Assembly: GCF_019711595.1 (NCBI RefSeq)
Contig: NZ_JAIGNR010000001.1
Coordinates: 620,001-684,000 of the forward strand
Length of the DNA: 64,000 bases
Reading direction: 5' to 3'
DNA from: Qipengyuania sphaerica
Lineage (GTDB): Bacteria > Pseudomonadota > Alphaproteobacteria > Sphingomonadales > Sphingomonadaceae
The notes under the pieces were generated by a model, which saw only the letters and a list, made by a program, of their open reading frames with translations, was not told where the DNA came from and ran no database searches. Shown here piece after piece: positions 44,837 to 61,405 of this stretch. A program made the translations under genes and the position numbers. How positions within the stretch are numbered: position 1 is the stretch's first letter; every line of letters starts with the position of its first letter.

Positions 44837-46333
44837 TCAGGCCGGCTTGTAATCGGGAAAGTTGAGCGCGCAGGCATCGAGCATTGCGCGCGTCGCATCG
44901 CGGTCCGCAGCCCTGATGCCTTGCGGCAGCGGCTGGAGCTTTTCCGGCCCCGGAAAGCTGCCATAGCCTGCGAAAAGGCAATGCCAACTCATGGCCGGAT
45001 AGGCGGGGTGCGTGCCGTTGATCGCGCGGTTCGCTTCCGCCAGGTCGCGGTGGGTGAACCAGGCGGTCATCATGTCCTTCAAGCCAGCAGGAAGTGACTG
45101 GTTGGCTGCATTCTCGCGCCAGTAGTCGGTGTCGCCGCGCTGGTTGAGCCGGTAATGGCCCACGATGTAATCGCGGATCCCGTCATACCGCTCGGCAATC
45201 CGGCGGTTGAAGGTATCGCGGTGCTGCCCGGTGAACCCGCCCGCCTCGAAGGCTTCCGCGAAATCCGTCGCCGTATGAATGACGATATGGAGCGCGGTCG
45301 CCTCGAGCGGCTCGATGAAACCCTGCGACAGGCCCGTCGCCAGGCAATTTCGGTTCCAGCTGTTTTCGATCCGGCCGACTTTCATCGACAGAAACCGGGC
45401 CTGTGTCTCCTCGCCCTCCATGCCGATGGCCGAGCGTAGTTCCCGCTCGGCCTCCTCGTCGGAGATGTGGCGCGAGGAATAGACATAGCCATTGCCAACC
45501 CGCGTCGTGAGCGGGATCGACCAGCGCCAGCCGGCACGCATGGCGATTGCATCGGTCTGCGGGCGCGGCGTTTGTCTGTGGGGCGTCGGCATCACGACCG
45601 CCCGGTCGTTGAACAGATTGTCGCCGAAGGGGAGGAACTTGGCACCCATTTTCTGTTGCGCAAGGATGGAAGCGAAGCCCGAACAGTCGACAAACAGGTC
45701 GCCCTCGATCCGCACCCCGTCTTCGCCCAGCAAGGCGGCGATATCGCCCTCGTCGGTCAGCTCCGCATGGAGGATCTTGAGCGGCAAATGTTCGACGCCG
45801 CGCGCAACCGCCCACTCGCGCAGGAAGCCGCCCAGCTTGTGCGCGTCGAAATGATAGCCGTAGCTGGGAGCGAACGGGAAATTCTCGCCCGCATGGGGCG
45901 ATTTGCCGGCCCGGGCGAGGGTCGCCGCCAGGAACCAGTCGTCGGGGTGTGCCGGAACATCGCCCCCGCGCCGCCGCAGCGCACAATTATGCGCGAATCC
46001 GGGCTCGGTATGTAGGTCGACGGGACCGGGGAAGGGGTGGAAATAGCTTTCGAAGCCAGCAACCTTGCTCCATCCGGTAAAGCGGATGCCGAGCTTGTAG
46101 GTGGCATCGCAGGCCGCCATCCATTCGGCCTCGTCGATGCCGAGCTGGTCGAAGAAGGCTTTCAGCTGCGGGGTGGAGCCTTCGCCCACGCCGATGATGC
46201 CGATGGCGGGGCTCTCCACCACCGTCACCTTGCCGCCGAGATCACCCCACCGCTGGTGGAAAAGGCAGGCGGTCATCCAGCCGGCGCTGCCGCCGCCCAG
46301 GACGACTACATGGGGCGGGGCAGCCTCGCTCAT
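44837..46333 (-). CDS. Flavin-dependent tryptophan-halogenase family protein (1)
   Basis: 498 residues from the ATG at 46333, fixed by a 4-base overlap with the esterase stop. FAD-binding GGGSAGW is at 13-19 and GVGEGSTP at 48-55. The catalytic Lys equivalent (PrnA Lys79) is K80 in TYKLG. The halogenase hallmark WxWxIP is W269-R-W271-S-I-P274, and E344 in PLEAT matches the catalytic Glu346 of PrnA. The Gly after the Thr in PrnA (chloride site) is Ala here. It should be a FADH2-dependent halogenase; a flavin reductase is not nearby. It closes the alpha-glucan operon. Substrate unknown; related enzymes found beside TonB receptors act on free indoles in vitro. Confidence 0.88.
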   Translation of the reverse strand: MSEAAPPHVVVLGGGSAGWMTACLFHQRWGDLGGKVTVVESPAIGIIGVGEGSTPQLKAFFDQLGIDEAEWMAACDATYKLGIRFTGWSKVAGFESYFHPFPGPVDLHTEPGFAHNCALRRRGGDVPAHPDDWFLAATLARAGKSPHAGENFPFAPSYGYHFDAHKLGGFLREWAVARGVEHLPLKILHAELTDEGDIAALLGEDGVRIEGDLFVDCSGFASILAQQKMGAKFLPFGDNLFNDRAVVMPTPHRQTPRPQTDAIAMRAGWRWSIPLTTRVGNGYVYSSRHISDEEAERELRSAIGMEGEETQARFLSMKVGRIENSWNRNCLATGLSQGFIEPLEATALHIVIHTATDFAEAFEAGGFTGQHRDTFNRRIAERYDGIRDYIVGHYRLNQRGDTDYWRENAANQSLPAGLKDMMTAWFTHRDLAEANRAINGTHPAYPAMSWHCLFAGYGSFPGPEKLQPLPQGIRAADRDATRAMLDACALNFPDYKPA

Positions 46334-47247
46334 TTCTCGCGCCAGAGCCACGTGAGCATTTCGGGCATGCGCTCACGCCAGAAATTCTCGTCATGCTCCG
46401 CACCGTCATAGACGCGGGCGGTGAAGTCCTCGCCCTCGCGCCAGCCGCGCTGCGCGAAGTCTTCGGCCAGCATGATCTGCCAGGGGCCGTAATAGCTGTC
46501 GAGCAGCTCGGCCCCGTGGTCCATCCAGATCCGCCTGCCGTTCGGATTGCCGAGATGCCCATCAAGATAGGTGTCCCACAGCCAGGCGATCTGTTCGTCG
46601 TGCTGCGGTGCCATCTGCGGGTCTGCCATGGCGAGATGCGCGCTGACGCATCCGGCGCGGCCGAATACCTCGGGTCGCTCGATGATCGAATAGCAGGACA
46701 TCACCCCGCCCATGCTCGCGCCGACGATGGTGCGGTTCTCCGCACCCGTTCGGGCGCGGTAATCGCGCTCCATCTGCGGGATCAGCGTGTCAGCAACCCA
46801 GCCCAGCTGGCGCTCGGATGCGATGGGGCCGCCCGCCATGTCGGACACGCTCCTGGCCACCATGCCCTTCGCATTCTCGGCAAATTGCGGGACGTAGCTG
46901 CGGTAGCGATCCTTGCCCGAAGGAGACCAGATGCCGACCACGATATGCGGCTCGGCCTCTCCGCGTGCGACCATGCCCTTGAGCACGTCCTGCACCATCC
47001 ACGCCTTGTTGTACTGCGTTTGCGAGGGGTCGAGCAGGTTCTGCCCGTCCCACATGTAGAGCACGGGGAAACGGCGATCGGATTGCGCATCATATTCGGG
47101 CGGCAGCCAGATCGTCACGCGCTGCGTAGGCAGGCCGTCCACCTCGATCGCCTCGATTTCCACCGTCCGCCCGCTTTCCGCAGGCGTGGGCAGGGTGCAA
47201 CCGATCACCCCCAGCAGGAGTGCGGCAGAGGCGAGGGAGCGGATCAC
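46330..47247 (-). CDS. Putative esterase lipoprotein (esterase D/enterochelin esterase fold)
   Basis: 305 residues from a GTG at 47247 overlapping the GH97 stop (GTGA). The lipobox IGC (Cys17) suggests lipid anchoring. The alpha/beta-hydrolase motifs are FPVLYMWDGQN, the nucleophile S178 in GASMGG, and the C-terminal His in AEHDENFW. PF00756 esterases include feruloyl, acetyl-xylan, S-formylglutathione and mycolyl members, so the substrate cannot be named. In this operon it could remove acyl groups from sugar or process the product of a halogenase. It sits between GH97 and halogenase 1 with 4-base overlaps on both sides. Confidence 0.82.
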   Translation of the reverse strand: MIRSLASAALLLGVIGCTLPTPAESGRTVEIEAIEVDGLPTQRVTIWLPPEYDAQSDRRFPVLYMWDGQNLLDPSQTQYNKAWMVQDVLKGMVARGEAEPHIVVGIWSPSGKDRYRSYVPQFAENAKGMVARSVSDMAGGPIASERQLGWVADTLIPQMERDYRARTGAENRTIVGASMGGVMSCYSIIERPEVFGRAGCVSAHLAMADPQMAPQHDEQIAWLWDTYLDGHLGNPNGRRIWMDHGAELLDSYYGPWQIMLAEDFAQRGWREGEDFTARVYDGAEHDENFWRERMPEMLTWLWREK

Positions 47248-49277
47248 CCTTGCGGTACGAATTCGATCGCGAAGCCGCCGGCAGGCGCAATGCGCAGGTC
47301 CAGCGTCTGGTCGGCAGTAACCGTCTTTTTCTCGACTTCCATCGCATGGCGGTCTGCGCCAAGGCCATTGGCGCTCGCCCCGTCGCGCCAGATCGTGGCC
47401 GAATAGGTCTTGCCCGGGTCGAGGAAATACAGCGGCACGCTGACATTGCGCTCCTGCTCGTCGGTCACTGCGCCGACGTAGAAATTGAGCGAGTTCCGGT
47501 CACGGCGGGCGATCACGGCATATTCACCGACCTTGCCGTCGATGAGCATGCTTTCGGCCCAGTCTGCCGGAACGCGTTTCACGAAATCGAGCGCGCGCGG
47601 ATATTTGACGAGGTTTTCGGGCAGGTCGGCGACCATCTGGATGGGCGAATAGATGGTCACGTAGAACGCCAGCTGCCGCGCGAGCGTGCTGGGAAGGTCG
47701 GGCGCGGTCGCGCCGCGACCCTCGAGCGAGAACACGCCCGGAGTGTAGTCCATCGGGCCAGACAGCATGCGAGTGAAGATCAGTTCAGGTACATGGCCGG
47801 GATCGTTCTTCGGCACGGCCCATGCATCATATTCCGCCCCGCGTGCACCTTCGCGGCTGACCCAGTTGGGATAGGTGCGGCGAAGGCCGGTGTCCTTGAT
47901 GGGTTCGTGAGGGTTCACTGCGATACCGTGCTCGGCCGCTTCCTTGACCACCTTGAGGTGGTGGCGGACCATCTCCTGCCCGTCGTGCCACACGAAGGTC
48001 TCGCCCATGCCGCCTTCGCCAGCGGGCGCAATGATGCCGCCCGCATCGGCGACATAGCCGCTCTTGACTGCATCGATGCCGAGGCTTTCGTAAAAGGCCA
48101 TCGCGTCTTCGAGCTGTTCCTCATAGACCTTGATGTTGCCGCCGGTTTCATGGTGTCCGATGATGCGGACGCCTTTTTCCATGCCGTAACGCGAAACTTC
48201 GGCGATATCGAAATCGGGATAGGCCTCGGTGAAGCTGAAATCGCGGCCATTGCCGAACCACGCGCCGTCCCAGCCCACGTTCCATCCTTCGATCAACACG
48301 CCGCGGAACCCGTGCTCCGCAGCGAAATCGATGTATTTCTTGGCGTTTTCGGTGGTGGCGCCATGCTTCTCGCCGCTGGCCCAGCTCTCGATATCGAGAT
48401 GCATACCCCACCAGATGCCGATGTATTTGTGCGGAGTGAAAAAGCCAACGTCGCCGAGCTTGTTGGGTTCGTTGAGGTTCAGCGTGATGTCGCTCTCGAA
48501 CAGCCCCTTGGCGTTGGAAGAGATGAGGATCGTGCGCCAGGGCGTGTTGAACGCGCCTTCGCGAATGACCTTGGGCCCGCGCGGTGATGGGGCCAGTTGC
48601 GCGCGCAGGCGGGTGCCGTCCATCCGCTTGAGCCACATGCCCGAATAATCGACCAACGCCGCCTCATGGAAGGAGAGGTGCGTGCCGTTGTCCATCACCA
48701 TGGTCACAGGCGTGTGGACGGTCGACAGCGCGCTGATCGGTGTCTTGGCGTAAAGATATTCGTACCGGTTCCAGTCGCCCGCAGGGATCGACCAGGCAGT
48801 GCCGTCGCCCGCAATGTTGAACTCGGTCAGTTCTTCGGCGATCCGATAGACCGGCTGGTTCACATTGTCGGCGAATTCGGTGCGGAACCCGATGCCGTCG
48901 TCGAACACGCGCATGCGGACGGTGATCTGGCGCGCGGCCTGATCCTTCTGGCGGAAGGTCAGCGCCAGTTCGTTATGGACGTCGTTGACCCACTGCTGCT
49001 CGCCCCAGGGCTGTTCCCAAGTCGAATTGTGCGCTTCCTCGCGGAAGTTCACGACCTCGAAATTGCGGCGCATCGGGTCGGCATCGGTGAAATTGAAGCC
49101 GATGGTCGATTTCGCGATGATCGGCACGCCGTCGCGGCTGACCTCGTAAAAGGGAATGCCTTCGCCATCGGCATCGAGCGTGACCTTGATGCGGCCGTCG
49201 GGCGAGGACACGGTCTCGGCCTGTGCGGCGGACAGGGGAAGGAGGGCGGCGCTCAGGAAAAGAGCTAGGCGGTTCAT
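47244..49277 (-). CDS. GH97 alpha-glucosidase (SusB-like)
   Basis: 677 residues from the ATG at 49277 (MNRLALFLSAAL). The signal peptide ends AQAE at about residue 21, so it is periplasmic. GH97 modules are evident: an N-terminal beta-sandwich (VSSPDGRIKVTLDADGEGIPFYEVS), a TIM barrel containing EGWNVGWDGAW, and the segments AVNPHEPIKDTG and SREGARGAEYD, which match the catalytic-Glu regions of SusB, the inverting alpha-glucosidase of Bacteroides. It releases glucose from the non-reducing ends of maltodextrins. It overlaps the upstream GH13 gene by 4 bases and the esterase by 4. Confidence 0.9.
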   Translation of the reverse strand: MNRLALFLSAALLPLSAAQAETVSSPDGRIKVTLDADGEGIPFYEVSRDGVPIIAKSTIGFNFTDADPMRRNFEVVNFREEAHNSTWEQPWGEQQWVNDVHNELALTFRQKDQAARQITVRMRVFDDGIGFRTEFADNVNQPVYRIAEELTEFNIAGDGTAWSIPAGDWNRYEYLYAKTPISALSTVHTPVTMVMDNGTHLSFHEAALVDYSGMWLKRMDGTRLRAQLAPSPRGPKVIREGAFNTPWRTILISSNAKGLFESDITLNLNEPNKLGDVGFFTPHKYIGIWWGMHLDIESWASGEKHGATTENAKKYIDFAAEHGFRGVLIEGWNVGWDGAWFGNGRDFSFTEAYPDFDIAEVSRYGMEKGVRIIGHHETGGNIKVYEEQLEDAMAFYESLGIDAVKSGYVADAGGIIAPAGEGGMGETFVWHDGQEMVRHHLKVVKEAAEHGIAVNPHEPIKDTGLRRTYPNWVSREGARGAEYDAWAVPKNDPGHVPELIFTRMLSGPMDYTPGVFSLEGRGATAPDLPSTLARQLAFYVTIYSPIQMVADLPENLVKYPRALDFVKRVPADWAESMLIDGKVGEYAVIARRDRNSLNFYVGAVTDEQERNVSVPLYFLDPGKTYSATIWRDGASANGLGADRHAMEVEKKTVTADQTLDLRIAPAGGFAIEFVPQG

Positions 49278-50896
49278 GCGGATATCTCCGTTATGATTGC
49301 GGCATGTGCCGGCAATTCGCGGTGGCTCGCGCCATTGATAGCCATCAGCACCTCGCCTTGGCAATCACTGCAGGCGATCGGTGCGCTGCCAAGATTGAAG
49401 CGGCATTCGATGCGCTGCGCGCCGGCTTCGCGCACGATAACGAGCAGGTCGCCCTCGGCGCGGCATTCGGCGACCTTGCCGTGATGCAGCGCGGGATGGG
49501 CCTTGCGCAGCGCAATCGCCTCGCGGGTGAAGTGGAGAAGCGAGTTTTTGTCGGCCTCCTGCGCTTCGACGGTGCGGGCGCGGTTGTCCTCGCCCACCGG
49601 GAGCCATGGATCGGTGCTGCCGAAGCCGGCGCAGGCGCTGGCATTCCACGGCATGGGCGTGCGCGCACCATCGCGGCTCAGCGTCAGCGGCCAGTTGGCG
49701 ATGGCTTCGGGGTCCTGCAGTTGCTCGAAGGGGATATCGACCTGCGTGAGGCCCAGTTCCTCGCCGTAATAGATGATGGCGTTGCCGCGCAGGCACATCA
49801 GCAGCAGCGTCTTCAACCGGGCAAAGTCGTCGCGCTCTTCGGGCGTGCACCAGCGGCTGAGCGCGCGCGGTGCATCGTGGTTCTCGAAGGCCCAGCTCGG
49901 CCAACCGAGGCGCTCTTCATCGGGCCATTCCGCCAGCGAGGCGCAGACCAGTTCGGGGCGCAGCTTGTCCGCATAGAGGAAGTTGAAGCTGTAGGCGGAG
50001 TTGAGGTGCGTTTCGCCATCGGTGAACAGCCGCATCTCGCGCACCGCATCGTCGCCGCCGACCTCGGCCACGGTGAAGATGCCGTCGAATTCGTCGGTCA
50101 GCGAGCGGATGCGCTCGATGAAGGCGGGGATGTCCGAATGGCTCTGGTTATACTGCTTGAGCTGGAAATCGAACGGGCGCGTGCGCGGCTTACCATTCTC
50201 CGGAGCGGGCGGGTTATCGCGCAGCTGCGGGTCATGCATGGCAAAATTGAGCGCATCGATGCGGAAACCGTCCACCCCGCGCTCGAGCCAGAAGCGCATC
50301 ACGCCCAGCACCGCATCCTGAGCATCCTTGTTGTGAAGGTTCAGCTGCGGCTGGCTGGCGAGGAAATTGTGCAGGTAATATTGCCCGCGCCGCGCGTCCC
50401 AGGTCCATGCCGGACCGCCGAACACCGATTGCCAGTTCGACGGCGGCGAACCATCGGGCTTGGCGTCGGCCCAGACGTACCAGTCGGCTTTCGGGTTGTC
50501 GCGGCTCGAACGGCTCTCGTTGAACCAATTGTGCTCGTCGGAAGTGTGCGAATAGACCTGGTCGATCAGCACTTTGAGCCCAAGTTCATGCGCGCGGGCC
50601 ACCAAGGCGTCGAAATCGTCGAGATTGCCGAAGATGGGATCGACGGCGCGATAGTCGGAAACGTCGTAGCCGAAGTCCTTCATCGGCGACTTGAAGAAGG
50701 GCGAAACCCAGATCGCATCCACGCCAAGGTTGGCAATATGCGGCAGCCGCCGGGTAATGCCCGGCAGATCGCCGATCCCGTCGCCATTGGCATCCATGAA
50801 GCTACGCGGGTAGATCTGGTAGATCGTCGCGCCCTTCCACCAGGGAAGCGCCTCGCTGGCCGCTACTTCGGCTTTCAAATCGGTTTTCACGTTCAT
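49274..50896 (-). CDS. GH13 alpha-glucosidase (oligo-glucosidase type)
   Basis: 540 residues from the ATG at 50896, set by a 4-base overlap with the SusA-like gene. No signal peptide, so cytoplasmic. GH13 catalytic groups: nucleophile Asp in DGFRIDALNFAM, acid Glu in FTVAEVGG, third Asp in FENHDAPR. QIYPRSFMDANGDGIGDLPGI is the exo-glucosidase hallmark shared with oligo-1,6-glucosidases and maltases. It probably hydrolyses maltose and short maltodextrins delivered by the MFS transporter. Confidence 0.93.
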   Translation of the reverse strand: MNVKTDLKAEVAASEALPWWKGATIYQIYPRSFMDANGDGIGDLPGITRRLPHIANLGVDAIWVSPFFKSPMKDFGYDVSDYRAVDPIFGNLDDFDALVARAHELGLKVLIDQVYSHTSDEHNWFNESRSSRDNPKADWYVWADAKPDGSPPSNWQSVFGGPAWTWDARRGQYYLHNFLASQPQLNLHNKDAQDAVLGVMRFWLERGVDGFRIDALNFAMHDPQLRDNPPAPENGKPRTRPFDFQLKQYNQSHSDIPAFIERIRSLTDEFDGIFTVAEVGGDDAVREMRLFTDGETHLNSAYSFNFLYADKLRPELVCASLAEWPDEERLGWPSWAFENHDAPRALSRWCTPEERDDFARLKTLLLMCLRGNAIIYYGEELGLTQVDIPFEQLQDPEAIANWPLTLSRDGARTPMPWNASACAGFGSTDPWLPVGEDNRARTVEAQEADKNSLLHFTREAIALRKAHPALHHGKVAECRAEGDLLVIVREAGAQRIECRFNLGSAPIACSDCQGEVLMAINGASHRELPAHAAIITEISA

Positions 50897-52731
50897 TCTG
50901 CGACCTCGGAAACCCGGCATACGGCCCAGCCGAATGCGGGAAGGGTGAAAGCGGCGCTGCCAGGAGCGCTGACGGCGGCCGGGCAACTGCCAGCAAGCGT
51001 TTCGAAGCTGCGCGCGTCGTATCCCACCGTGATATTCGCGGATTTCGCCGAACCAGTGGTGTTGAAGACGAGCAGGTATTCGCGCCCCGTGTCGGGCTCG
51101 AAACGGCTGGCAGCGAAGATGCCCGCATCCTCTTCGTAATGGCGCACTACCTGCTTCCCACGCGACAGGGCAGGGTGCGCGCGGCGGACGGCGGAAAATT
51201 CGGCAATCAGGCGGTAGAGCGGATGCGCGCGGTCGAAATTGCTCGCCGTGGTTGTCGCATCGGTCCCGATGAGGTCGTTGTCATTGTAGCTCTCCGTGCG
51301 GCTCGGGAACATGTCCTCGCGCGCTGCCTGGTCGTTGCCGTCGCCGACGAAGCCCTGCTCGTCGCCATAATAGATCACCGGGGAGCCGCGCAGCGTCAGC
51401 AGCATTGCATGGGCGAGCTTCGTGCGCGCGAGCATTTCGTCTGCGCCGATGTCTTCATTGTCCCAGCGCAGCATGGTGGTGAAGCGGCCCATATCGTGAT
51501 TGCCGAGGAAGGTCGGCATGCCGAGCGCGGCTTCCTCGCCTCCTTCGTAGAGCACGTCGCCGTCGAACAGTTCGTTGAGGATGAAAGTCCCCTTGCCCTG
51601 GCTCACGACCTCGCGGATGCCCTGCTGGAACGCAAAGTCGAGCACGGCAGGAAAGCCGTCGCGGCGGGTGTATTGCGCGATATAGCCATTGTCGTGATCG
51701 TCGCGGTAGACTTCGCCGAAGATGTGGAAGTTCGGAATGCCGCTTGCGCGCGCGGTTTCAAGCATGGCGGGAACGAATTCCTGCCAGAACTCCGGATTTA
51801 CATGGCGCGCGGTGTCGACGCGAAATCCGTCGATACCGGTATCGCGGATCCAGCCGGTGTAGATATCGATCATTCCTTTGACGACGCGCGGATGCTCGGT
51901 GAAGAGATCGTCCAGCCCCACGAAATCGCCCTGGCGGCTGCTTTCGCCCGAGAAGGTCGTGTCGCCGCGATTGTGGTAGTAGATCGGGTCGTTGAGCCAG
52001 GCAGGCACCTTGATGTCCGCTTCGCTCTTCAGGGTCGTCGGCGTGTAGGCATAGGACGGGTCGACCAGCTTGGCGAAATTGTCTGCGCTGCGGTCCTCGT
52101 CGCCCATGAAGCCGGGATTGATGGCCGGGCCATCCACTCCGCCGCGCCGTGAATAGGGGAAGTCGCCCTTGCTGCGGTAAACGTAACCCGTTTCGTCGCC
52201 TTCCAGATATCGGATGACGTCGGCGGTATGGTTGGTGATGATGTCCATGTAGACCTTCATCCCGCGCGCGTGCGCCGCGTCGACGAAGGCCTTGAATTCC
52301 TCGCGCGTACCGAAATGGCCATCGGGACGGGTGAAGTCGGTCACCCAGTACCCGTGATAACCCGCACTCTCGTCGCCTGCGGGGCCCTGCACCGGCTTGT
52401 TCTGGAAGATCGGTGCGAACCAGATGGCCGTAATGCCGAGACCTTCGAGGTAATCGAGGCGCTGGGTAAGGCCTGCAAGGTCGCCGCCATGGAAGAAGCC
52501 CTTGTGCGTGGGGTCGAAACCGGTTGCCAGGCGATCGCCCGTGAAATCCCCGAGGTCGTTCGAGGTGTCGCCATTCTCGAAGCGGTCCGGCAGGACGAAA
52601 TAGACCACTTCCTCGCTCGGTGCACGATCGCGGAACGTCCGGTCCTGACCATATTGCGGTGCGGGCGTCTGCGCGGTGGCGCAGGCCGAGAGACCGAGGG
52701 CGAGAAGGGGCAGGATAGGGCTTTTCATCAT
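50893..52731 (-). CDS. GH13 alpha-amylase-type lipoprotein (SusA/neopullulanase-like)
   Basis: 612 residues. The signal peptide ends in a lipobox LSAC (Cys16), so the mature enzyme is membrane-anchored. Catalytic Asp in DGFRVDTARH, Glu in HIFGEVY and Asp in LGNHDMGR are intact, and GDFPYSRRGG and NDNDLIGTDATT are family loops. The C-terminal beta domain ends VCRVSEVAE. It should cut alpha-1,4 (perhaps alpha-1,6) links in starch-derived dextrins in the periplasm or at the surface. It lies between halogenase 2 and the alpha-glucosidase gene with ATGA overlaps on both sides. Confidence 0.92.
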   Translation of the reverse strand: MMKSPILPLLALGLSACATAQTPAPQYGQDRTFRDRAPSEEVVYFVLPDRFENGDTSNDLGDFTGDRLATGFDPTHKGFFHGGDLAGLTQRLDYLEGLGITAIWFAPIFQNKPVQGPAGDESAGYHGYWVTDFTRPDGHFGTREEFKAFVDAAHARGMKVYMDIITNHTADVIRYLEGDETGYVYRSKGDFPYSRRGGVDGPAINPGFMGDEDRSADNFAKLVDPSYAYTPTTLKSEADIKVPAWLNDPIYYHNRGDTTFSGESSRQGDFVGLDDLFTEHPRVVKGMIDIYTGWIRDTGIDGFRVDTARHVNPEFWQEFVPAMLETARASGIPNFHIFGEVYRDDHDNGYIAQYTRRDGFPAVLDFAFQQGIREVVSQGKGTFILNELFDGDVLYEGGEEAALGMPTFLGNHDMGRFTTMLRWDNEDIGADEMLARTKLAHAMLLTLRGSPVIYYGDEQGFVGDGNDQAAREDMFPSRTESYNDNDLIGTDATTTASNFDRAHPLYRLIAEFSAVRRAHPALSRGKQVVRHYEEDAGIFAASRFEPDTGREYLLVFNTTGSAKSANITVGYDARSFETLAGSCPAAVSAPGSAAFTLPAFGWAVCRVSEVAE

Positions 52732-54236
52732 GTTCTCTCCGCTACCCGGCCCACAAAACCGGTCAGGAATTGGCGATGTGTCGGAAGCGAGCCTGCAATC
52801 ATGCTCGCCTGCTTTTCGATTGCGCCAAGGAAGGGGCCGATATCTTTGGCTGGGACGTTGTCGGCCAGCGGCGACCAGCTACGCGGCTCGATGCCCTGGC
52901 CCAGCATGACCTGGCCCCAGCTTTCATCGAGGAAGAGCTCTTCGTCCTCGCGCACGATCTGGCCCGAATTTTCGAACATCTCGATTTTCTCGGCGAGCGT
53001 ATCGGGCGGCGTGATGGCGCGGCAATGGTCCCAAAAGGGATCGCCTTCGCGCTCGTTGGCGATGTAGTGCAGCACCAGGAAATCGCGGATGCGCTCCCAC
53101 TCGATTTGCGACTGCCGGTTGAAGACCTCGCGGGCTTTGGCGCCGCCCTTCAGGTCGCCGGGCAACAGGGTGAGAAGACGCGCAACGCCCGACTGGACAA
53201 GGTGGATCGAGGTCGATTCCAGCGGCTCCATGAAACCGGCGGCAAGTCCCAGCGCGACGCAATTGTGCGACCAGAATTCCTTGCGGTGGCCCGTGCGAAA
53301 GCGGATCGGGCGCGGATCGCCGAGCGGCTTCGTCTCGAGGCTCGCGAGCAACAGGTCCGTCGCTTCGCCCACATCCATGAAGGAGGAGCAGAAGACGTGG
53401 CCATTGCCCGTCCGATGCTGCAGCGGAATGCGCCATTGCCAACCTGCGGGGCGCGCCAAGGACTGCGTATAGGGGCGCAGGTGATCGCCCGCTTCGGTCG
53501 GTACGGCCAGCGCCGTGTCACAGGGGAGATATTCGCTCCAGTCGACGAAGGACACACCGAGCGTCTTGCCGAGTGCGAGACTCGCAAAACCGGTGCAATC
53601 GATGAACAGGTCCGCAGCCAAGGCGGTGCCGTTTTCCAGCGTCATCAATGTGATGTCGCCGGTCTCTCCATCGCGCTCGAATGCGGCGATCTTGCCTTCG
53701 ACACGCTTCACGCCGCGCTTTTCCGAGTAGCTGCGCAGAAGCTTGGCGAGCAGGCTCGCGTCGAAATGGTAGGCGTATCCGAGATCGGCCACGTTTTTCA
53801 GCGGGGCGAGCGTAAAGCGCTGTTCGCGCGCGGCGACGACGTTGAGGCCATAAGAGCCGAAATCTTTCGCCACGCCGAGGCCGCGTCCGCGGAGCCAGAG
53901 CTGGCGGAAAGGGATGAGCCCGACCGTCCGTCCGGTCGCGCCGAAACTGTGGATATAGCTGTGGCCTACACGCAGCCAGTCGACGAACTCGATGCCAAGC
54001 TTGAAGCTGGCATTGGTCGCGCGCATGAATTCGGCTTGGTCCAGGCCAAGCCCCTGGATGAGATTATGGATTTGCGGAATGGTCGCTTCGCCCACGCCGA
54101 CCGTCCCGATCGCATCGGATTCGACCAGCGTGATCTCCGCCGTGTCACCCAGGAAGCGGGCGAACAGCGCTGCGGCCATCCATCCGGCGGTTCCGCCGCC
54201 GGCAATGACGATCTTCAAGTTTCCGGTGTTGCTCAT
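52728..54236 (-). CDS. Flavin-dependent tryptophan-halogenase family protein (2)
   Basis: 502 residues from the ATG at 54236 (MSNTGNLKIV). FAD-binding GGGTAGW is at 13-19 and GVGEATIP at 47-54. Catalytic Lys79 is in SFKLG, at the PrnA number. WxWxIP is W266-Q-W268-R-I-P271, and E340 in PLEST is the PrnA Glu346 equivalent, followed by Ser in place of the chloride-site Gly. It is clearly a paralogue of halogenase 1 but diverged, including the region that closes over substrate in PrnA (residues 90-150). It is the first gene after the receptor, 59 bases away across a strong hairpin. Function within glucan use is unknown. Confidence 0.88.
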   Translation of the reverse strand: MSNTGNLKIVIAGGGTAGWMAAALFARFLGDTAEITLVESDAIGTVGVGEATIPQIHNLIQGLGLDQAEFMRATNASFKLGIEFVDWLRVGHSYIHSFGATGRTVGLIPFRQLWLRGRGLGVAKDFGSYGLNVVAAREQRFTLAPLKNVADLGYAYHFDASLLAKLLRSYSEKRGVKRVEGKIAAFERDGETGDITLMTLENGTALAADLFIDCTGFASLALGKTLGVSFVDWSEYLPCDTALAVPTEAGDHLRPYTQSLARPAGWQWRIPLQHRTGNGHVFCSSFMDVGEATDLLLASLETKPLGDPRPIRFRTGHRKEFWSHNCVALGLAAGFMEPLESTSIHLVQSGVARLLTLLPGDLKGGAKAREVFNRQSQIEWERIRDFLVLHYIANEREGDPFWDHCRAITPPDTLAEKIEMFENSGQIVREDEELFLDESWGQVMLGQGIEPRSWSPLADNVPAKDIGPFLGAIEKQASMIAGSLPTHRQFLTGFVGRVAERT

Positions 54237-54256
54237 GGCTTCACCATAACCTTGCA

Positions 54257-54282
54257 GGCCCGGCCTTGTGCAAGACCGGGCC
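54257..54282 (-). other. Strong hairpin between TonB receptor and halogenase 2
   Basis: Two 12-base arms (plus strand GGCCCGGCCTTG and CAAGACCGGGCC) close on a 2-base loop with one G-U pair in RNA. No T-run follows, so it is not a normal terminator. It sits in the only sizeable gap of the operon and may attenuate or stabilise the receptor mRNA. Confidence 0.6.
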
Positions 54283-54295
54283 CGCACGGCATCGA

Positions 54296-57031
54296 TCAGA
54301 ACTTGTAGGTGAAGCCGGCGAGGAAGCGGCGACCGTAAGTCTGGTACTTCAGCCAGGCTTCGGGGATGCCCTGACCGTTGACCGGTGCGACCGTTGCCTG
54401 ACGTTCGTCGGTGAGGTTCTGGCCCTGAATGAAGAGCGAGAGGCCTTCGAGCGTCGAACCATCGGCGAAATCATATCCGATCTGCGCATCGTAGACGGTT
54501 TCAGCCAGCACCGACTGCCGATCAAGACCGCCGCTGAAGAGCGAGAAGTCGCCGATGAAGTCCGACCGGTAACGCATGCTGGCGCGGGCGCTGAAGCCTT
54601 CACCCTTGTCGTAGAAGGCCGTCATGTTGGCCACCCACTTCGAATAGCCGGGAATGTCCGTAGCGTTGCCGTTGAAGTCTTCCGCCTTGGTATCGGTGTA
54701 GCCGACACCGCCCGTCAGGCCGAAGCCGTCGAGAGCTGTAGTGAAGACATCGAACGGCAGCGTGCCGGCCAGTTCGCCGCCCATGATATAGCCGCCCTCG
54801 GTGTTGACGGGACCCCGATAAATTCCGATCGGAGTTGCGGGGACGATGCCCGTCGGCACGGGGAACACAGAATAATCAAACGCGGTATCGATTGCGTCCG
54901 GGTCGATATATTGGTCGAGGTTCTTCCAATACAGTTGGAGTGCTATGTAGCCCTGGGTCCCGAAGTATTTTTCGACGCTCAAATCCAATGCTGTGGCCAT
55001 ATAGGGGCGAAGTGTGGGATTGCCGCCACCGCCGTCATAGACCTGCGGATCCAAGTTTATATTCACTCCGAAGTCGACGATATTGTTCATCTGCGGGAGT
55101 CGCGGACGCATGAACTGGCGTGATGCACCGAAGCGGATGACGAAGTCTTCCGGCGCACGGAAATTGAGGTTCAGGCTAGGCAGGATCATCCAGTATTCGT
55201 CGGTAATTGTCGGCTTTACTGCACCAACCGATTCCACGCTGGTGTGCACCGCCTGGATACCGATGTTGCCAGTGAGATCGGTGCCACCACCCAAGTCGCT
55301 GAAGAAGTTCAGCATCGCGAACGGCGTCCATACGTCTTCGGTCACTTCGTAAGCTTGGGAAGCTCCGAAGTCGTTCGGTTCGTAGTCGAGGATGCCTTGC
55401 GGAACGAGAAGACGCGGGTCGTACGAAAGGATTTCTCCGAAGCCGCGATCAAGGAAGGTGGTTTCGACCAGAACGCTGTCGGGAATGACTGCGAAATCGG
55501 CACCGCCGGGCGGAATGAGAGTGGCCTCCTGCTGGGTGAGGCGCTTGTTGCGCGTGACGTAGTCGACACCGACCAGCAGGGATTCGAACAATCCGCCAAG
55601 GTCCTTCTCGATCTCAGCGCGGATCTGCTTCAGGTCGTCGCGGCTCTCGCGAATCTTGTCGTAGCCCGCCTGGTTGGTGGGCCCCGACCAGCCCTGCACG
55701 TCGGTAAGGACGAGATCATCGCTGTTCGCGTTGAAATCGCTTGTGAACAGCAGCGCGTTATCTTCGGTCAGCGTGTAACCGAAGGTGCCCCCAAATGTCT
55801 CCACGGGAAGCGGATTGCCGAGATCATCTTCCGTCGGCAAGTTGCGACCGAGACCAGCGATCGTTTCAAGGCGATCCTGCCAGCGGTCCGTACGCGACCA
55901 GCTGACGTCGAGCATGGCGCGCAGGCCGTTGTCGTTTTCCCACTCCAGATTGCCGCCGACCGAATAGGTGTCGTTCACCGCATCGGTGGCGTAGTTTTCG
56001 ATGATCGGGCGGCCGGTCCAGGTCGCGCTGGTGACGATCGAAGCGCCCGACACGGGACCGGTCAGTTCACGGCTGGTGAAACCGGTAACGGTCGATCCGC
56101 AGCACAGGATCGGCATTTCGAAGCCCTTCTGGTCGAGCTTCTCGTCGAAGTTGGAGTAGAAGCCGTCGACCGTCAGGGTCAGCTGGTCTCCGAGGCGTGC
56201 CTGCACGGTGCCGTTGAGGCCAAGGCGCTTCAGGCGCGAGGATTCTTCCCAGGTCTTTACGCCGCTGATGCCGAAGACTTCGTTGTCGGCGTCATAAGCG
56301 CCGTAGCCCCACGCGTTCCAGTCGCGGATGTGGTACGGTTCGTCGGTGTAGGCAGCGGACAGGGCAACGCCGATATTGTCGTCGCCGAAGGTGTCCACGA
56401 AGGTGCCGAAAACGCGGAAGCCGTATTCGCGGCTGCCGGCGACGGCCTGGAGATCGTTGTAAACGCCGCGTGCGCCTACTGCGATAACGGGCTCGCTAAT
56501 GTCGAGCGGGCGAATGGTGCGCAGGTCGATCGCGCCGACGAGGCCGCCTGCGGTCCGGTTGGCCTGCGAAGTCTTGTAGACGTCCACGCCGCTCAGAATT
56601 TCGGAGGGGAACTGGTCGAATTCTACCGCGCGGCTGTCGTTGGTGGTCGTCTGCTGGCGACCATTGAGCGTGGTGGTCGAGAAGTCGGGACCGAAACCGC
56701 GGATCGAGATGATGTTGGCGCGGCCGTTGCTTCGCTGCGCGGCAATACCGGGCAGGCGGGCAATCGATTCGCCGATGCTGTTGTCGGGCAGCTTGCCGAT
56801 GTCTTCGGCCTTGACCGATTCCACGATCGTTGCGCTGCGCTTCTTCTCTGCGGTCGCGCTCTGGAGCGATGCGCGAAAGCCGGTAACGACGATCACGTCG
56901 TCATCAGCGGTTGCTTCGGCGGGCGTGCCCTCGGCGCTCTCCTGCGCCGCGGCAGGTGCTGCGAATGTGCCGAGCGCGGCGGCGAAAGCCGACATGCTCA
57001 CGGTGGCAGCGAGCTTGCTACGAATAGCCAT
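54296..57031 (-). CDS. TonB-dependent receptor (Caulobacter type, maltodextrin)
   Basis: 911 residues from the ATG at 57031, behind GGGAGAAG. The signal peptide is residues 1-29 (ending AAAQ). A TonB box DDVIVVTG lies at 44-51, then the plug domain (VESVKAEDIGKLPDNSIGESIARLPGI, then ISIRGFGPDFSTTTLNGR), and the barrel ends YGRRFLAGFTYKF with a terminal aromatic. It resembles MalA-type receptors that carry maltodextrins across the outer membrane using ExbBD-TonB energy. It leads the minus-strand operon and is divergent from the LacI regulator. Confidence 0.93.
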   Translation of the reverse strand: MAIRSKLAATVSMSAFAAALGTFAAPAAAQESAEGTPAEATADDDVIVVTGFRASLQSATAEKKRSATIVESVKAEDIGKLPDNSIGESIARLPGIAAQRSNGRANIISIRGFGPDFSTTTLNGRQQTTTNDSRAVEFDQFPSEILSGVDVYKTSQANRTAGGLVGAIDLRTIRPLDISEPVIAVGARGVYNDLQAVAGSREYGFRVFGTFVDTFGDDNIGVALSAAYTDEPYHIRDWNAWGYGAYDADNEVFGISGVKTWEESSRLKRLGLNGTVQARLGDQLTLTVDGFYSNFDEKLDQKGFEMPILCCGSTVTGFTSRELTGPVSGASIVTSATWTGRPIIENYATDAVNDTYSVGGNLEWENDNGLRAMLDVSWSRTDRWQDRLETIAGLGRNLPTEDDLGNPLPVETFGGTFGYTLTEDNALLFTSDFNANSDDLVLTDVQGWSGPTNQAGYDKIRESRDDLKQIRAEIEKDLGGLFESLLVGVDYVTRNKRLTQQEATLIPPGGADFAVIPDSVLVETTFLDRGFGEILSYDPRLLVPQGILDYEPNDFGASQAYEVTEDVWTPFAMLNFFSDLGGGTDLTGNIGIQAVHTSVESVGAVKPTITDEYWMILPSLNLNFRAPEDFVIRFGASRQFMRPRLPQMNNIVDFGVNINLDPQVYDGGGGNPTLRPYMATALDLSVEKYFGTQGYIALQLYWKNLDQYIDPDAIDTAFDYSVFPVPTGIVPATPIGIYRGPVNTEGGYIMGGELAGTLPFDVFTTALDGFGLTGGVGYTDTKAEDFNGNATDIPGYSKWVANMTAFYDKGEGFSARASMRYRSDFIGDFSLFSGGLDRQSVLAETVYDAQIGYDFADGSTLEGLSLFIQGQNLTDERQATVAPVNGQGIPEAWLKYQTYGRRFLAGFTYKF

Positions 57032-57160
57032 ATCCAGTTCTTCTCCCAGTAGGTCCGCCCATATTTTCTCGGGTTCGCCGGACCAGATAAAATCCCCGCA
57101 GGCCGTTACCTGCTCAGCCTTTGAATACGACCGGGATGTGTCGCCCGCATAGACGGCATA

Positions 57161-57343: not shown

Positions 57344-58378
57344 ATGGGACGCAAGCCGACAGGACGGCCTACCAGTTTCGATATCGCTTATGCCGCCGGC
57401 GTTTCGCAGCCGACCGTCAGCCGTGCGCTGCGCGGCGATCGATCGGTGAGCGAGAAAACACGCGAGAAAATTCAGAAGATCGCCCGCGAACTGAATTATA
57501 CTGTCGACAAGAATGCCTCGTCGCTGCGCTCGCAGCGGGCGAACACGATCGCCCTCCTGTTTTTCGAGGACCCGACGCCCGACGAAAGCATGATCAATCC
57601 TTTCTTCCTCGCCATGCTCGGCTCGATCACCAAGGCAACCGCAGACGAGGGGCTGGACTTGCTGATCTCGTTCCAGCGGATGGAAGACGACTGGCACGTA
57701 CAATACCAGGACAGCCACCGCGCCGACGGGCTGATCCTGCTCGGCTATGGCGACTACACCAAGTACCGCGAGCGCATGGCGCAGCTGGCCAAGCAGGGCA
57801 CGCATTTTGCCCGCTGGGGTTCGGTTTCGAGCGACAGCAGCGGGGTAACCGTCGGAACGGACAATGTCGGGGCAGGGCGCCTAGCTGGTGAGCATCTGAT
57901 CGCACAGGGGCGCAAACGGATCGCGTTTCTCGGCCATGCGGACGAACATTATCCCGAGTTCAACGGTCGCTACCTCGGCTTGTCCGCTGCGATGCGCAAT
58001 GCGGGTATAGAGCCCGACCCGGCGCTCCAATACGATGCACTGACGACCGAAGAGGAGGGGCGCGCCGCAGCCCAGGCCCTGCTCGACAGCGGCGCCGACT
58101 TCGATGCCATCTTCGCTGCCAGCGACCTTATTGCGATAGGTGCCATGCGCGCCCTGGCCGACGCGGGCCGCAGCGTGCCGCGTGATGTCGCAGTCGTCGG
58201 CTTCGACGATATTCCTGCCGCCAGCATGACCACTCCGCCGCTGACGACAGTCATGCAGGACATTCGCGGTGCAGGGCAGATCCTCGTCGAAACCCTGCTG
58301 GCGCAAATCGAAGGCCGCGACCTTCCGCCGCGCAAACTTCCCGGCAAGCTGATCGTGCGCGGCAGCAGCTCGGCCTGA
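57344..58378 (+). CDS. LacI-family transcriptional regulator of the glucan locus
   Basis: 344 residues. An N-terminal helix-turn-helix at about 11-32 ([22 protein letters not shown], close to the LacI consensus) is followed by the hinge [20 protein letters not shown] periplasmic-binding-like effector domain follows, with [19 protein letters not shown] and [14 protein letters not shown], the usual end of sugar-sensing members. It probably represses the receptor operon and the MFS-amylase unit when maltodextrin is absent. It faces the receptor gene over 312 bases and is followed 92 bases later by the transporter. Confidence 0.93.
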
Positions 58379-58470: not shown

Positions 58471-60009
58471 ATGATTATGGACGCGATTGCGCGCGAAAAG
58501 CCCAGGCAGGGATTTGCCGGGCTGTGGAACATCAGCTTCGGATTTTTCGGCATCCAGATCGGCTTTGCGCTGCAGAATGCGAACATGAGCCGCGTTTTCC
58601 AGACGCTGGGTGCGAGCATGGACGACCTGCCGGCCTTGTGGGTCGCGGCTCCGCTGACGGGCCTGATCGTGCAACCGATCATCGGCCACTTGTCCGACAA
58701 GACGTGGAACCGGCTGGGCCGTCGTCGCCCCTATTTTCTGACGGGTGCCATCTTCGCGGCGCTATCCCTTCTGGTCATGCCGTTGAGCCCGGCCTTCGGC
58801 GCGCCGCTGATCTTCGCCGCGGCGATGCTATGGGTGCTCGATGCCTCACTCAATGTTTCAATGGAACCGTTCCGCGCCTTCGTCGGCGACATGCTTAATA
58901 CCGATCAGCACAGTGCGGGATACGCGGTGCAAACTGCCTTCATCGGGGCAGGTGCGGTGGTCGGATCGATTTTCCCGTATTTCCTCGAGCAGCTCGGTGT
59001 TTCGAATGTCTCACCAGATGGCGGCATTCCGGACACGGTGAAATACAGCTTCTGGTTCGGCGCGGTAGCGCTGTTCACGGCCGTCCTGTGGACCGTCGTG
59101 ACTACGAAGGAATTCTCGCCCGAGGAGATGACCGCATTCGGCGAGGTCGCCGAGGCTGATGACACTCAGCCGCTGCGAGCCTTGGCAGCGAAATCTTACC
59201 TGTCCTGCATCTTGTGGATCGTCGCAGGCGCTGTGGTGATCCTATTGGTTGAAATGTTCGGCCTGCAAAAGGAAATGCTGCTGCTGGGGGGGCTGCTGAA
59301 AGCTTACGGTGTCCTAAGCGCGGTCGCTATCGCCATGGCCAGAAAGGGTCAGGCCGCCAACATGCTGTCTAGCATCGTCGGAGACTTTTCCGGGATGCCC
59401 GAGGTGATGAAGCGCCTCGCCTTGGTGCAGTTCTTCAGCTGGTCCGCGCTGTTCATCATGTGGATCAACACCACGCCCGTCGTCACCCAATACGTGTTTG
59501 GCAGTACCGACACGGCCAGCGTTGCCTACAACGCGGGGGCGAACTGGGTGAATGTGCTTTTCACGGTGTACAATGGTGTCGCTGCTATCGCCGCGCTCGC
59601 GCTTCTTCCGGTACTCAGCCGCAAGTTCGGGCAGGTCATGACGCATTCGATTTGCCTGATGCTCGGAGCCTTCGGCTTCCTGATGTTTTTCTTCGTGCGC
59701 GATGCGAACACATTGTTGCTGGCCGAAGTCGGCATCGGGATCGCATGGGCCAGCATCCTCGCCATGCCTTACGCCATTCTGGCTTCGAACCTGCCGCAAG
59801 CGAAGCTCGGCATCTACATGGGCTTGTTCAATATTTTCATCGTCGTACCGCAGTTGCTGGTAGCGACGGCCATGGGGCAGATCATGCTGTGGCTCTTCCC
59901 TGGCGAGCCGATCTGGACGATGCTGTTTGCGGCCGGGTCATGGATTATCGCCGCCCTCGCCATGCAGCGAGTGCGCACCGCCATCCCGCAGGAGGCCGAT
60001 CATGCGTAA
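58471..60009 (+). CDS. MFS sugar transporter (SLC45/GPH-like)
   Basis: 512 residues (or 510 from the second Met at 58477) with twelve predicted membrane helices. The loop 2-3 motif reads [21 protein letters not shown]; the GRRRPY core is typical of the proton-coupled sucrose/maltose carriers related to SLC45. The [14 protein letters not shown] segment in helix 1 is also conserved there. Its genomic place between a LacI regulator and an amylase predicts maltose or maltodextrin uptake across the inner membrane. This replaces a MalFGK-type ABC system, none of which is seen here. Its stop overlaps the amylase start by 8 bases. Confidence 0.9.
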
Positions 60010-61405
60010 ACTGATTGCCGCATCAGCCGCGATCGCGCTGGCTGGTTGCGCCCATGCCGTGCCGGGTCCGACCGGTGAAGCGCTGGACACCGGCTGGGAA
60101 TCGCAAAGCAAGGTCACCATCGAGCACCCGGAGTGGTCGCGCGACGCGGTGCTCTACCAAATCAATACCCGCCACTTTACCAAAGAAGGCACCTTCAAGG
60201 CTGCGCAGGAGCAACTGCCGCGCCTGAAGGAACTGGGCGTCGATATCCTCTGGCTCATGCCGATCCACCCGATCGGCAAGGAAAACCGCAAGGGCACGCT
60301 CGGGAGCCCCTACTCGGTACTCGATTATTACGGGGTGAACCCGGAATTCGGGACCGAAGAGGAATTCCGCGCCTTCGTCGATGCAGCGCATGCCCAAGGC
60401 TTCAAGGTCATCCTCGACCTCGTCGCCAACCACACGGCGTGGGATCATCCGATGCGAAGCGAGCATCCCGACTGGTACGAGAAAACTTGGGATGGCGACT
60501 TCCGCCCGACCCCGTGGTGGGACTGGTCCGACATCATCGACCTCGACTGGTCGAAGCCCGGCGTGCGCGAGCACGTCGGCGGGGCGATGGAATATTGGGT
60601 GCGCGAATTCGATATCGACGGCTATCGCGCCGATGTGGCGGGTTATGTCCCGCTCGATTTCTGGGAGACCGCGCGAGCGCGGTTGGAAGCGATAAAGCCG
60701 GTCTTCATGCTGGGCGAGGTACAGCAGAGCGGTTTCCACCATGCCGCTTTCGATGCGACCTATGCCTGGGACTGGCACAACACCTCGAAGAATGTCGCCC
60801 ACGGCAAAGGCAATGCCACCAGCTTTTACGGTTATTACGCCGAAAACGAGAGCCTCTGGCCGCGCGAGGCCATGCGCATGACCTATATCGAGAACCACGA
60901 CAGCAATGCGTGGGAAGGGACGATGGAGGAGAATTACGGCGCGGCACTCGAAGCGATGACCGCGCTTTCCTTCACTGGCGAGGGCCTGCCGCTCATCCAT
61001 AACGGGATGGAGGCTTGCAATTCCAAGCGGCTCGAATTTTTCGAGCGCGACCCCATCGACTGGAACCAAGACCCCAGTTGCGAATACGGCGACCTCCTGA
61101 AACGACTGATAGCGTTCCGGAAGGCCAACCCCGCACTCGAAAACGGGCAGTGGGGGGCTGTGATGCACAAGGTCGAGAACAGCGCTCCCGAGCAGCTTTT
61201 CGCCTGGGTGCGGCAGGAGGATGGCAACAAGGTGCTCGGGCTGTTCAACATGAGCGACCGGTCCGTGACGGCAACTTTCTCGGACGGCTTGCCATTCGGC
61301 AGCTATGTCGATTTCGCAACCGGCGACACCATTGCGATCGGGGGCGCCACCAAGGTCGATCTTCCGGCGTGGGGTTACCGCTTGATGAGCACGCGCAGAC
61401 GATAA
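60002..61405 (+). CDS. GH13 alpha-amylase lipoprotein
   Basis: 467 residues from the ATG at 60002 ([16 protein letters not shown]). The lipobox LAGC (Cys16) predicts lipid anchoring. Catalytic Asp in [11 protein letters not shown], Glu in MLGEVQQ and Asp in IENHDSNAW are intact, and [13 protein letters not shown] is the conserved first GH13 region. It is shorter than the SusA-like enzyme because the C-terminal beta domain is compact. It is probably an endo-acting or maltogenic amylase working in the periplasm. It overlaps the MFS gene by 8 bases. Confidence 0.92.

Follow-up and report, generated by a model that had tools for sequence, protein, structure and literature searches.

The 64,000-nucleotide stretch of Qipengyuania sphaerica DNA analysed here (contig NZ_JAIGNR010000001.1, positions 620,001 to 684,000, in a genome of 2.84 Mb; hereafter, the window) carries on its minus strand an operon in which two flavin-dependent halogenases (FDHs), termed Hal2 and Hal1, are combined with enzymes of alpha-glucan breakdown (Table 1). 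The gene order is TonB-dependent receptor (TBDR), Hal2, SusA-like GH13 enzyme, alpha-glucosidase, GH97 enzyme, esterase and Hal1. Taken together, the evidence given below indicates that Hal2 very probably forms one module with the TBDR of the operon, and not with alpha-glucan breakdown.

A preliminary description of this DNA, made from the letters alone, had placed two halogenases inside an alpha-glucan operon with the esterase, GH97, GH13 and SusA-like genes lying between them, and this arrangement was borne out by both Pfam matches and coordinates. The range it proposed (nt 44837–54236) correctly takes in both halogenases, but omits the TBDR, which is the key partner, as well as the divergent LacI, MFS and GH13 genes.

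Table 1. Features of the halogenase-containing alpha-glucan locus, with positions in the window.
Feature	Position	Strand	Support and remarks
TonB-dependent receptor (TBDR), operon gene 1	54296–57043	-	NCBIfam TIGR01782, 497.5 bits (cut-off 310)
GC-rich hairpin, TBDR stop to Hal2 start	54249–54290	-	-38.1 kcal/mol over 67 nt
Hal2, flavin-dependent halogenase of the Xcc4156/BrvH kind, operon gene 2	52728–54236	-	PF04820, 582.9 bits
SusA-like GH13 enzyme	50893–52731	-	PF00128, 216.7 bits; 4-bp overlap with Hal2
GH13 alpha-glucosidase-like enzyme	49274–50896	-	PF00128, 410 bits; start from codon model
GH97 enzyme	47244–49277	-	PF10566, PF14508, PF14509; start from codon model
Esterase	46330–47247	-	PF00756, 74.6 bits
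Hal1, second flavin-dependent halogenase, last operon gene	44837–46333	-	PF04820, 420.8 bits
LacI-family regulator, divergent	57344–58378	+	PF00356, PF13377
MFS sugar transporter, divergent	58471–60009	+	PF07690, PF13347
GH13 enzyme, divergent	59927–61405	+	PF00128, 113.9 bits; start uncertain, listed form overlaps the MFS gene

From Hal2 through Hal1, all five gene junctions are overlaps of 4 bp (with starts from the codon model), including that between the esterase stop and the Hal1 ATG at nt 46333, suggesting a single translationally coupled unit. The TBDR is 915 aa long as listed, an earlier start being possible, and its AlphaFold model has a predicted local distance difference test (pLDDT) value of 81.4. 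A scan for promoters and terminators gave a number of sites not above that of shuffled sequence, and the transfer RNA scan found no tRNA.

Hal1 and Hal2 as enzymes

Both proteins match PF04820 over their full length (Pfam cut-off, 21 bits) and carry the sequence motifs of the family. The WxWxIP motif (WRWSIP at W269 in Hal1, WQWRIP at W266 in Hal2), the catalytic Lys (K80 and K79, respectively) and the catalytic Glu (E344 and E340) are found exactly where the preliminary description had put them, and the GxGxxG motif for flavin adenine dinucleotide (FAD) reads GGGSAGW in Hal1 and GGGTAGW in Hal2. The solved structures nearest to Hal2 are Xcc4156 of Xanthomonas campestris (6y1w, E 5.6e-142), followed by 9luq and by BrvH (6frl, Brevundimonas-type, from a marine metagenome). 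The nearest sequences to Hal1 are Th-Hal, SttH and AbeH; its AlphaFold model (pLDDT 86.8) shows the FDH fold, with a template modelling (TM) score of ~0.87 to FAD-bound AbeH and Thal, and its best Foldseek matches are PyrH, SttH and AbeH (E about 1e-43). A missing FAD site, named beforehand as a finding that would refute the preliminary reading, is unlikely according to the Hal1 model, while for Hal2 the sequence match to 6y1w stands in.

Conservation was examined in an alignment of 196 halogenase rows, including the window's own (identical rows removed, one gene present twice), together with three references; 164 rows are of Hal2 type, 12 of the Hal1 class and 20 divergent. The catalytic Lys and Glu are kept in 164/164 Hal2-type rows (one gene counted twice) and in 12/12 Hal1-class proteins. 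In a rough comparison with the Qipengyuania vesicularis locus, which has no esterase and for which dS is near 1, the ratio of nonsynonymous to synonymous substitution rates (dN/dS) was 0.096 for Hal2 and 0.139 for Hal1, and between 0.08 and 0.16 for TBDR, SusA, glucosidase and GH97, indicating that both halogenases are under purifying selection. Judged by sequence, both appear to be working halogenases. No signal peptide was visible on either of them by eye.

The two enzymes can be assigned to separate classes. Right after the catalytic Glu, Hal1-class proteins have Ala and not Ser (12/12), a difference that the preliminary description had overlooked; the motif is EATAL in 8 of the 12, and ESTSI in Hal2. 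In the tree, Hal1 falls outside the BrvH/Xcc4156 clade and beside Th-Hal, on long branches flagged by the tree tool. Judging from the length of loop region 1 (19 residues in both Hal1 and Hal2; Xcc4156 16, BrvH 22, Th-Hal 42), neither enzyme has the long loop which closes over free Trp in PrnA, RebH and PyrH. Loop region 2 has 17 residues in Hal2, as in Xcc4156 and BrvH, and 23 in Hal1, so that loops short in both regions, the open-pocket trait of BrvH and Xcc4156, are present here.

Xcc4156 resembles Hal2 in its motifs, short substrate loops and open pocket, and differs from it in context: its clade has seven other rows, six of which come from TBDR-SapC-cupin cassettes and not from alpha-glucan loci. 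BrvH resembles Hal2 in the ESTSI motif and the short loops, is active on indole with bromide preferred, and has a second halogenase gene adjacent to its own; it lies, however, on another branch of the tree. A term search of the papers on Xcc4156 and on BrvH found no word beginning with TonB. Th-Hal, SttH, PyrH and AbeH, the tryptophan 5/6-halogenases that are the best sequence and fold matches of Hal1, act on free Trp and, unlike Hal1, have the long loop. They serve secondary metabolism.

The residue following the chloride-site Thr is Ala in Hal1 and Ser in Hal2, not Gly, as the preliminary description had said. Its further suggestion of altered halide handling was dropped. Indeed, Ser is the norm of the clade (157/164 Hal2-type rows) and is also found in BrvH, which brominates, preferring bromide and chlorinating weakly too (PMC5945002); Ala, found in 10/12 Hal1-class proteins, is characteristic of that class and has no demonstrated bearing on halide. 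Being a clade trait, the residue is no sign of a change in this locus.

Halogenases and TonB-dependent receptors across genomes

The SusA family search matched 87 of 249 genomes (88 rows). Seventy distinct SusA loci were surveyed: 69 are rows of this search, one of these being on the contig of a named locus, and the seventieth is another named locus. L008 and L269, which are a single contig, were counted once, and the 19 rows outside the survey were partial or weaker (8) or long (11). A TBDR lies just upstream in the operon in 64 of the 70 loci, and 60 of these 64 carry Hal2 in the order TBDR-Hal2-SusA, which is not due to chance. Hal1 is present in 41/70 loci and never without Hal2, TBDR-Hal2-SusA loci with Hal1 downstream also amounting to 41/70. 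In three loci the TBDR is divergent from SusA, and in one of them (L271) Hal2 follows the TBDR.

Four loci (L242, L249, L250 and L251) lack both Hal2 and Hal1 and have an otherwise complete enzyme set. A clear halogenase is missing from the rest of these genomes too, PF04820 giving either no hit in them or a single one of 20–24 bits, in accordance with the earlier statement that starch use needs no halogenation. Three of their TBDRs form a separate clade of the receptor tree, and the fourth is 96% identical to one of these. The sugar enzymes near halogenase-linked TBDRs also vary. Among the matches listed, from neighbour proteins scanned at 37/41, 38/44, 43/52 and 46/51 (cut or short ones excluded), they comprise GH3 and GH16; GH10, GH3, GH43, GH9 and GH67; GH5 and GH67; and fucosidase, alpha-galactosidase, GH3 and GH97; in the window they are GH13 and GH97. 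A starch-specific role of Hal2 was rejected in view of the Hal-less operons and genomes and of this variety of enzymes.

Linkage was then counted in 12 genomes, chosen mostly for being rich in halogenases and including that of the window and a sister genome, with 84 halogenases and 74 TIGR01782 TBDRs; rows with PF04820 below 25 bits (4), with Cupin_8 below 40 bits (6), or with TIGR01782 below 300 bits or partial had been dropped before counting. A TIGR01782 TBDR was found within 0.5 kb of 32/84 halogenases, within 2 kb of 52/84, within 6 kb of 68/84 and within 12 kb of 80/84, the expectation from coverage being 1.0, 1.6, 3.2 and 5.5, respectively. Of 119 genomes of the same family, 84 have a PF04820 match at E 0.001; in 17 of them it is weak (best E above 1e-20), and a clear halogenase is present in 67/119, with no more than 12 candidates scored in each genome.

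A wider set consisted of 80 Hal2 relatives from named genomes, spanning alpha-, beta- and gammaproteobacteria according to genus names; 79 of them have a called halogenase, and for 69 of these the flanking sequence reaches 5 kb in each direction. By raw count, 66/69 have a TBDR, of one family or another, within 5 kb. The first TBDR profile had found 43/69 within 10 kb, and the figure of 66/69 within 5 kb was obtained by adding five seed receptors, confirmed as TBDR-like by Pfam; the profile so widened could include a few false members. Four of the five receptors initially missed match siderophore-receptor models below cut-off and one is of the OMP_b-brl_4 type.

In a tree of 81 distinct TBDRs, of which 43 are halogenase-linked and 38 unlinked (a receptor of genome G091 present in overlapping stretches being counted once), this label switches 8 times; in 100 label shuffles it switched 26.8 times on average and never fewer than 21 times. 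The partner of Hal2 would thus be, in all likelihood, a receptor lineage and not a sugar. The link to TonB uptake that had been suggested earlier is strongly supported for Hal2, and is broader than first claimed, by the counts within 2 kb and 5 kb, by the receptor tree and by the exchange seen within the genus (see below). Hal2 can be placed in a TBDR-linked halogenase module, proposed here, to which Hal1 belongs only by way of the shared operon.

The receptor cassettes contain further recurrent genes. The genome of the window has a second cassette (C2:338018–347333; L147:4851–14424), in which four halogenase-like genes stand behind a long TBDR of TIGR01782 type, and a LacI-like and a beta-glucosidase-like gene (below NCBIfam cut-offs) come after these. 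The gene at L147:9913–11376, with similar ones in the 12 genomes and in named loci, codes for a halogenase-like protein of multi-halogenase cassettes whose catalytic residues are lost; among the 20 divergent rows, 18 are without the Lys and 16 without both Lys and Glu, in what is an alignment of distant rows. Such a protein may be a structural or regulatory partner. SapC and Cupin_8 are recurrent partners, and the order TBDR-SapC-Cupin_8-halogenase is found in most of the Xcc4156-like branch. In the 12 genomes, 8/20 SapC genes lie within 2 kb of a TBDR, the remaining 12 being one per genome, with over 90 kb separating each from the nearest TIGR01782 TBDR of its contig, and 15/25 Cupin_8 genes lie within 6 kb. 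A DUF6445 protein is encoded directly after a receptor-linked halogenase at L060:11491–12159 and elsewhere.

These cassettes bear on the explanation that halogenation was lost and that the flavin is used for some other oxidation, such as hydroxylation, of the same kind of partner. Besides the halogenase-like proteins devoid of catalytic residues, they hold Cupin_8, SapC, DUF6445 and one biopterin-dependent hydroxylase domain, families several of which we take to be oxygenases, and the Ala replacing Ser after the Glu in all 12 Hal1-class proteins also agrees with it. We nevertheless hold it to be quite unlikely, given that Lys, Glu and motifs are kept in both enzymes of the window, that the Hal1 model has the FDH fold and that the closest tested relatives brominate.

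The locus shares its logic with the Shewanella Mal loci (susA, susB, malZ, MalT, MalR, Omp-Mal TBDR), that is, a LacI regulator, an inner-membrane symporter, a TBDR, SusA and further maltodextrin hydrolases, but a term search in the main text of the paper on them (PMC2996990) found no mention of a halogenase there. No description of a halogenase-TBDR link was found in the open-licence literature; subscription papers, for instance on the Caulobacter maltose locus, may mention it. The enzymes are members of a known group, and it is their systematic tie to TBDRs for which the literature searched gave no description; they are unusual as a system and ordinary as enzymes.

Joint exchange of receptor and Hal2

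When the window was compared with a locus of the same genus (L223, genome G239), identity was 88% for SusA, 84% for the glucosidase, 91% for GH97, 71% for the esterase and 88% for LacI, and fell to 40% for the TBDR and 48% for Hal2, indicating that TBDR and Hal2 were exchanged jointly within an otherwise conserved operon. Since the operon of L223 stops at the esterase and tblastn with Hal1 matched only its Hal2, Hal1 was probably lost there; two further PF04820 genes, one of them at 375 bits, lie elsewhere in G239.

Pairs of loci were then selected by the mean identity of SusA, glucosidase and GH97, a gene being scored as changed when its identity was below 0.60; the pairs share loci and are not independent. 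At a threshold of 0.80 (18 pairs) both genes were changed in 3 pairs and neither in 14, while a change of Hal2 only was seen in 1 pair and of the TBDR only in none. In the same order, the four numbers were 8, 50, 1 and 0 at 0.75 (59 pairs), and 50, 115, 1 and 8 at 0.70 (174 pairs). Over 51 distinct loci, the distances of TBDR and Hal2 correlate at 0.47 (partial 0.35), those of the TBDR and the enzymes at 0.30–0.34. In quartet agreement the TBDR likewise goes best with Hal2 (0.68; other genes, 0.47–0.59). By these measures the tie of Hal2 to the receptor would be moderate. Hal1 appears only to share the operon, its link to the receptor being unsupported because it tracks the glucosidase most.

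Several observations weigh against a tie of Hal2 to the receptor. The TBDR was changed and Hal2 kept in 8 of the 174 pairs at 0.70. An earlier candidate, strong co-evolution of the two (r 0.86 at 8 loci), was abandoned when the value fell to the present, moderate one at 51 loci. Hal2 correlates with the glucosidase at 0.52 (partial 0.37), equally well as or better than with the TBDR, and its quartets also agree more with the glucosidase (0.75) than with the TBDR (0.68); those of Hal1 agree best with the glucosidase (0.90, 38 loci). As TBDR and Hal2 lie side by side, both could be moved by one tract of recombination even if no functional tie existed. Where the TBDR is divergent, Hal2 is absent behind it in two loci out of three (L267 and L277), and the genome of L277 (G129) has a TBDR of the linked clade and no halogenase at all. 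Finally, for 2/84 halogenases the nearest TIGR01782 TBDR is as far away as 86 and 528 kb.

Some of these points would suit halogenases that are passengers, carried along in receptor operons but not specifically tied to what the receptor does: in G129 the receptor type occurs without the halogenase, and adjacent genes may be swapped jointly by chance alone. Moreover, Hal1 is missing from 29/70 loci and Hal2 from 10/70 at its usual place, therefore neither is essential to the operon. Mere passengers are nonetheless improbable in view of the purifying selection, of the full conservation of Lys and Glu and of the joint replacement with the TBDR, and in view of a linkage that spans several receptor families in alpha-, beta- and gammaproteobacteria.

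Candidate target of Hal2

As a whole, we tentatively propose, with somewhat less than even confidence, that Hal2 is a receptor-dedicated halogenase and that its substrate is a peptide or protein belonging to the import module, most likely the TBDR. Within this proposal, a protein or peptide as substrate is possible rather than probable. According to PMC7336383, the open site of Xcc4156 fits larger substrates, possibly peptides, in the view of its authors; BrvH and Xcc4156 act on indoles and not on free Trp; and the native substrates of BrvH and of three Xanthomonas halogenases are described as unknown.

In the mechanism envisaged, cytosolic FADH2 and O2 would give a flavin hydroperoxide and, from it, hypobromous acid (HOBr) or hypochlorous acid (HOCl), which would pass to the catalytic Lys K79; the substrate, a peptide or protein docked on the open pocket, would then be halogenated at an aromatic side chain, probably that of a Trp. 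Hal2 would act in the cytosol, and its likeliest target would be the freshly synthesised TBDR prior to export, or some other polypeptide that belongs to the import module. In the alpha-glucan operons, Hal1 is an additional halogenase that can be absent, and it may serve a second site or product.

The hairpin that separates the TBDR from Hal2 (z -5.16 relative to dinucleotide-shuffled sequence) has similar counterparts, with z below -2, in 51/61 distinct TBDR-Hal2 junctions (60 mononucleotide shuffles each), and is perhaps an element of messenger RNA stability or processing. It may keep the TBDR message abundant and that of the halogenase lower, which would fit an enzyme acting on the receptor.

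A common halogenation site was sought in the alignment of linked TBDRs and was not found. Three Trp residues of the window TBDR, W245, W452 and W803 (915-aa numbering; 290, 497 and 848 in the alternative numbering), are conserved at 98%, 100% and 89% in 61 Hal2-linked TBDRs, 60 of which come from alpha-glucan loci, plus that of L155, which is not shown to be such a locus. The same positions are absent from the Hal-less TBDRs (3 of 4 read). Trp amounts to 12.3 per 1000 residues in linked TBDRs vs 8.8 in unlinked ones. Other points go against the receptor as target: no aromatic TBDR column distinguishes the large halogenase-linked clades jointly from the rest, the Trp enrichment is not significant over 8 independent pairs, and the halogenase-free L277 keeps all three Trp positions. 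Cytosolic action on an exported barrel protein is, in addition, awkward.

It is also conceivable that the substrate of the halogenases is a small aromatic molecule connected with receptor-mediated import, for example a signal resembling indole, a phenolic decoration or some compound imported alongside, which would be halogenated in the cytosol for tagging, detoxification or signalling. BrvH converts free indole, albeit slowly (2.5 mU/mg; PMC5945002), and receptor-linked halogenases are found also beside siderophore-receptor-like TBDRs, where an aromatic cargo is thinkable. The same type of enzyme occurs, however, with receptors for chemically different sugars, therefore no single cargo fits, and LacI is kept at 88% in the exchange within the genus, therefore a role through the sugar regulator is unlikely. 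We consider a small-molecule substrate unlikely on balance.

Returning to Hal2 as a halogenase of the import module, the broadest form of this idea would be that certain lineages of receptors have a dedicated halogenase, accompanied in some of them by halogenase-like proteins without activity, SapC and cupin, and that the dedicated enzyme brominates or chlorinates aromatic residues of the receptor. This generalisation is doubtful, and we know of no halogenation of receptor aromatics as a modification of outer-membrane proteins.

The tie to TBDRs and the natural joint replacements give a short list of candidate targets, which can be tested by mass spectrometry of one protein. They also carry a warning that a gene for a "tryptophan halogenase" need not signal a halogenated natural product. 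Should receptors indeed be halogenated, envelope proteins would be shown to undergo a modification of a new kind, and halogenases accepting peptides would become available from this source.

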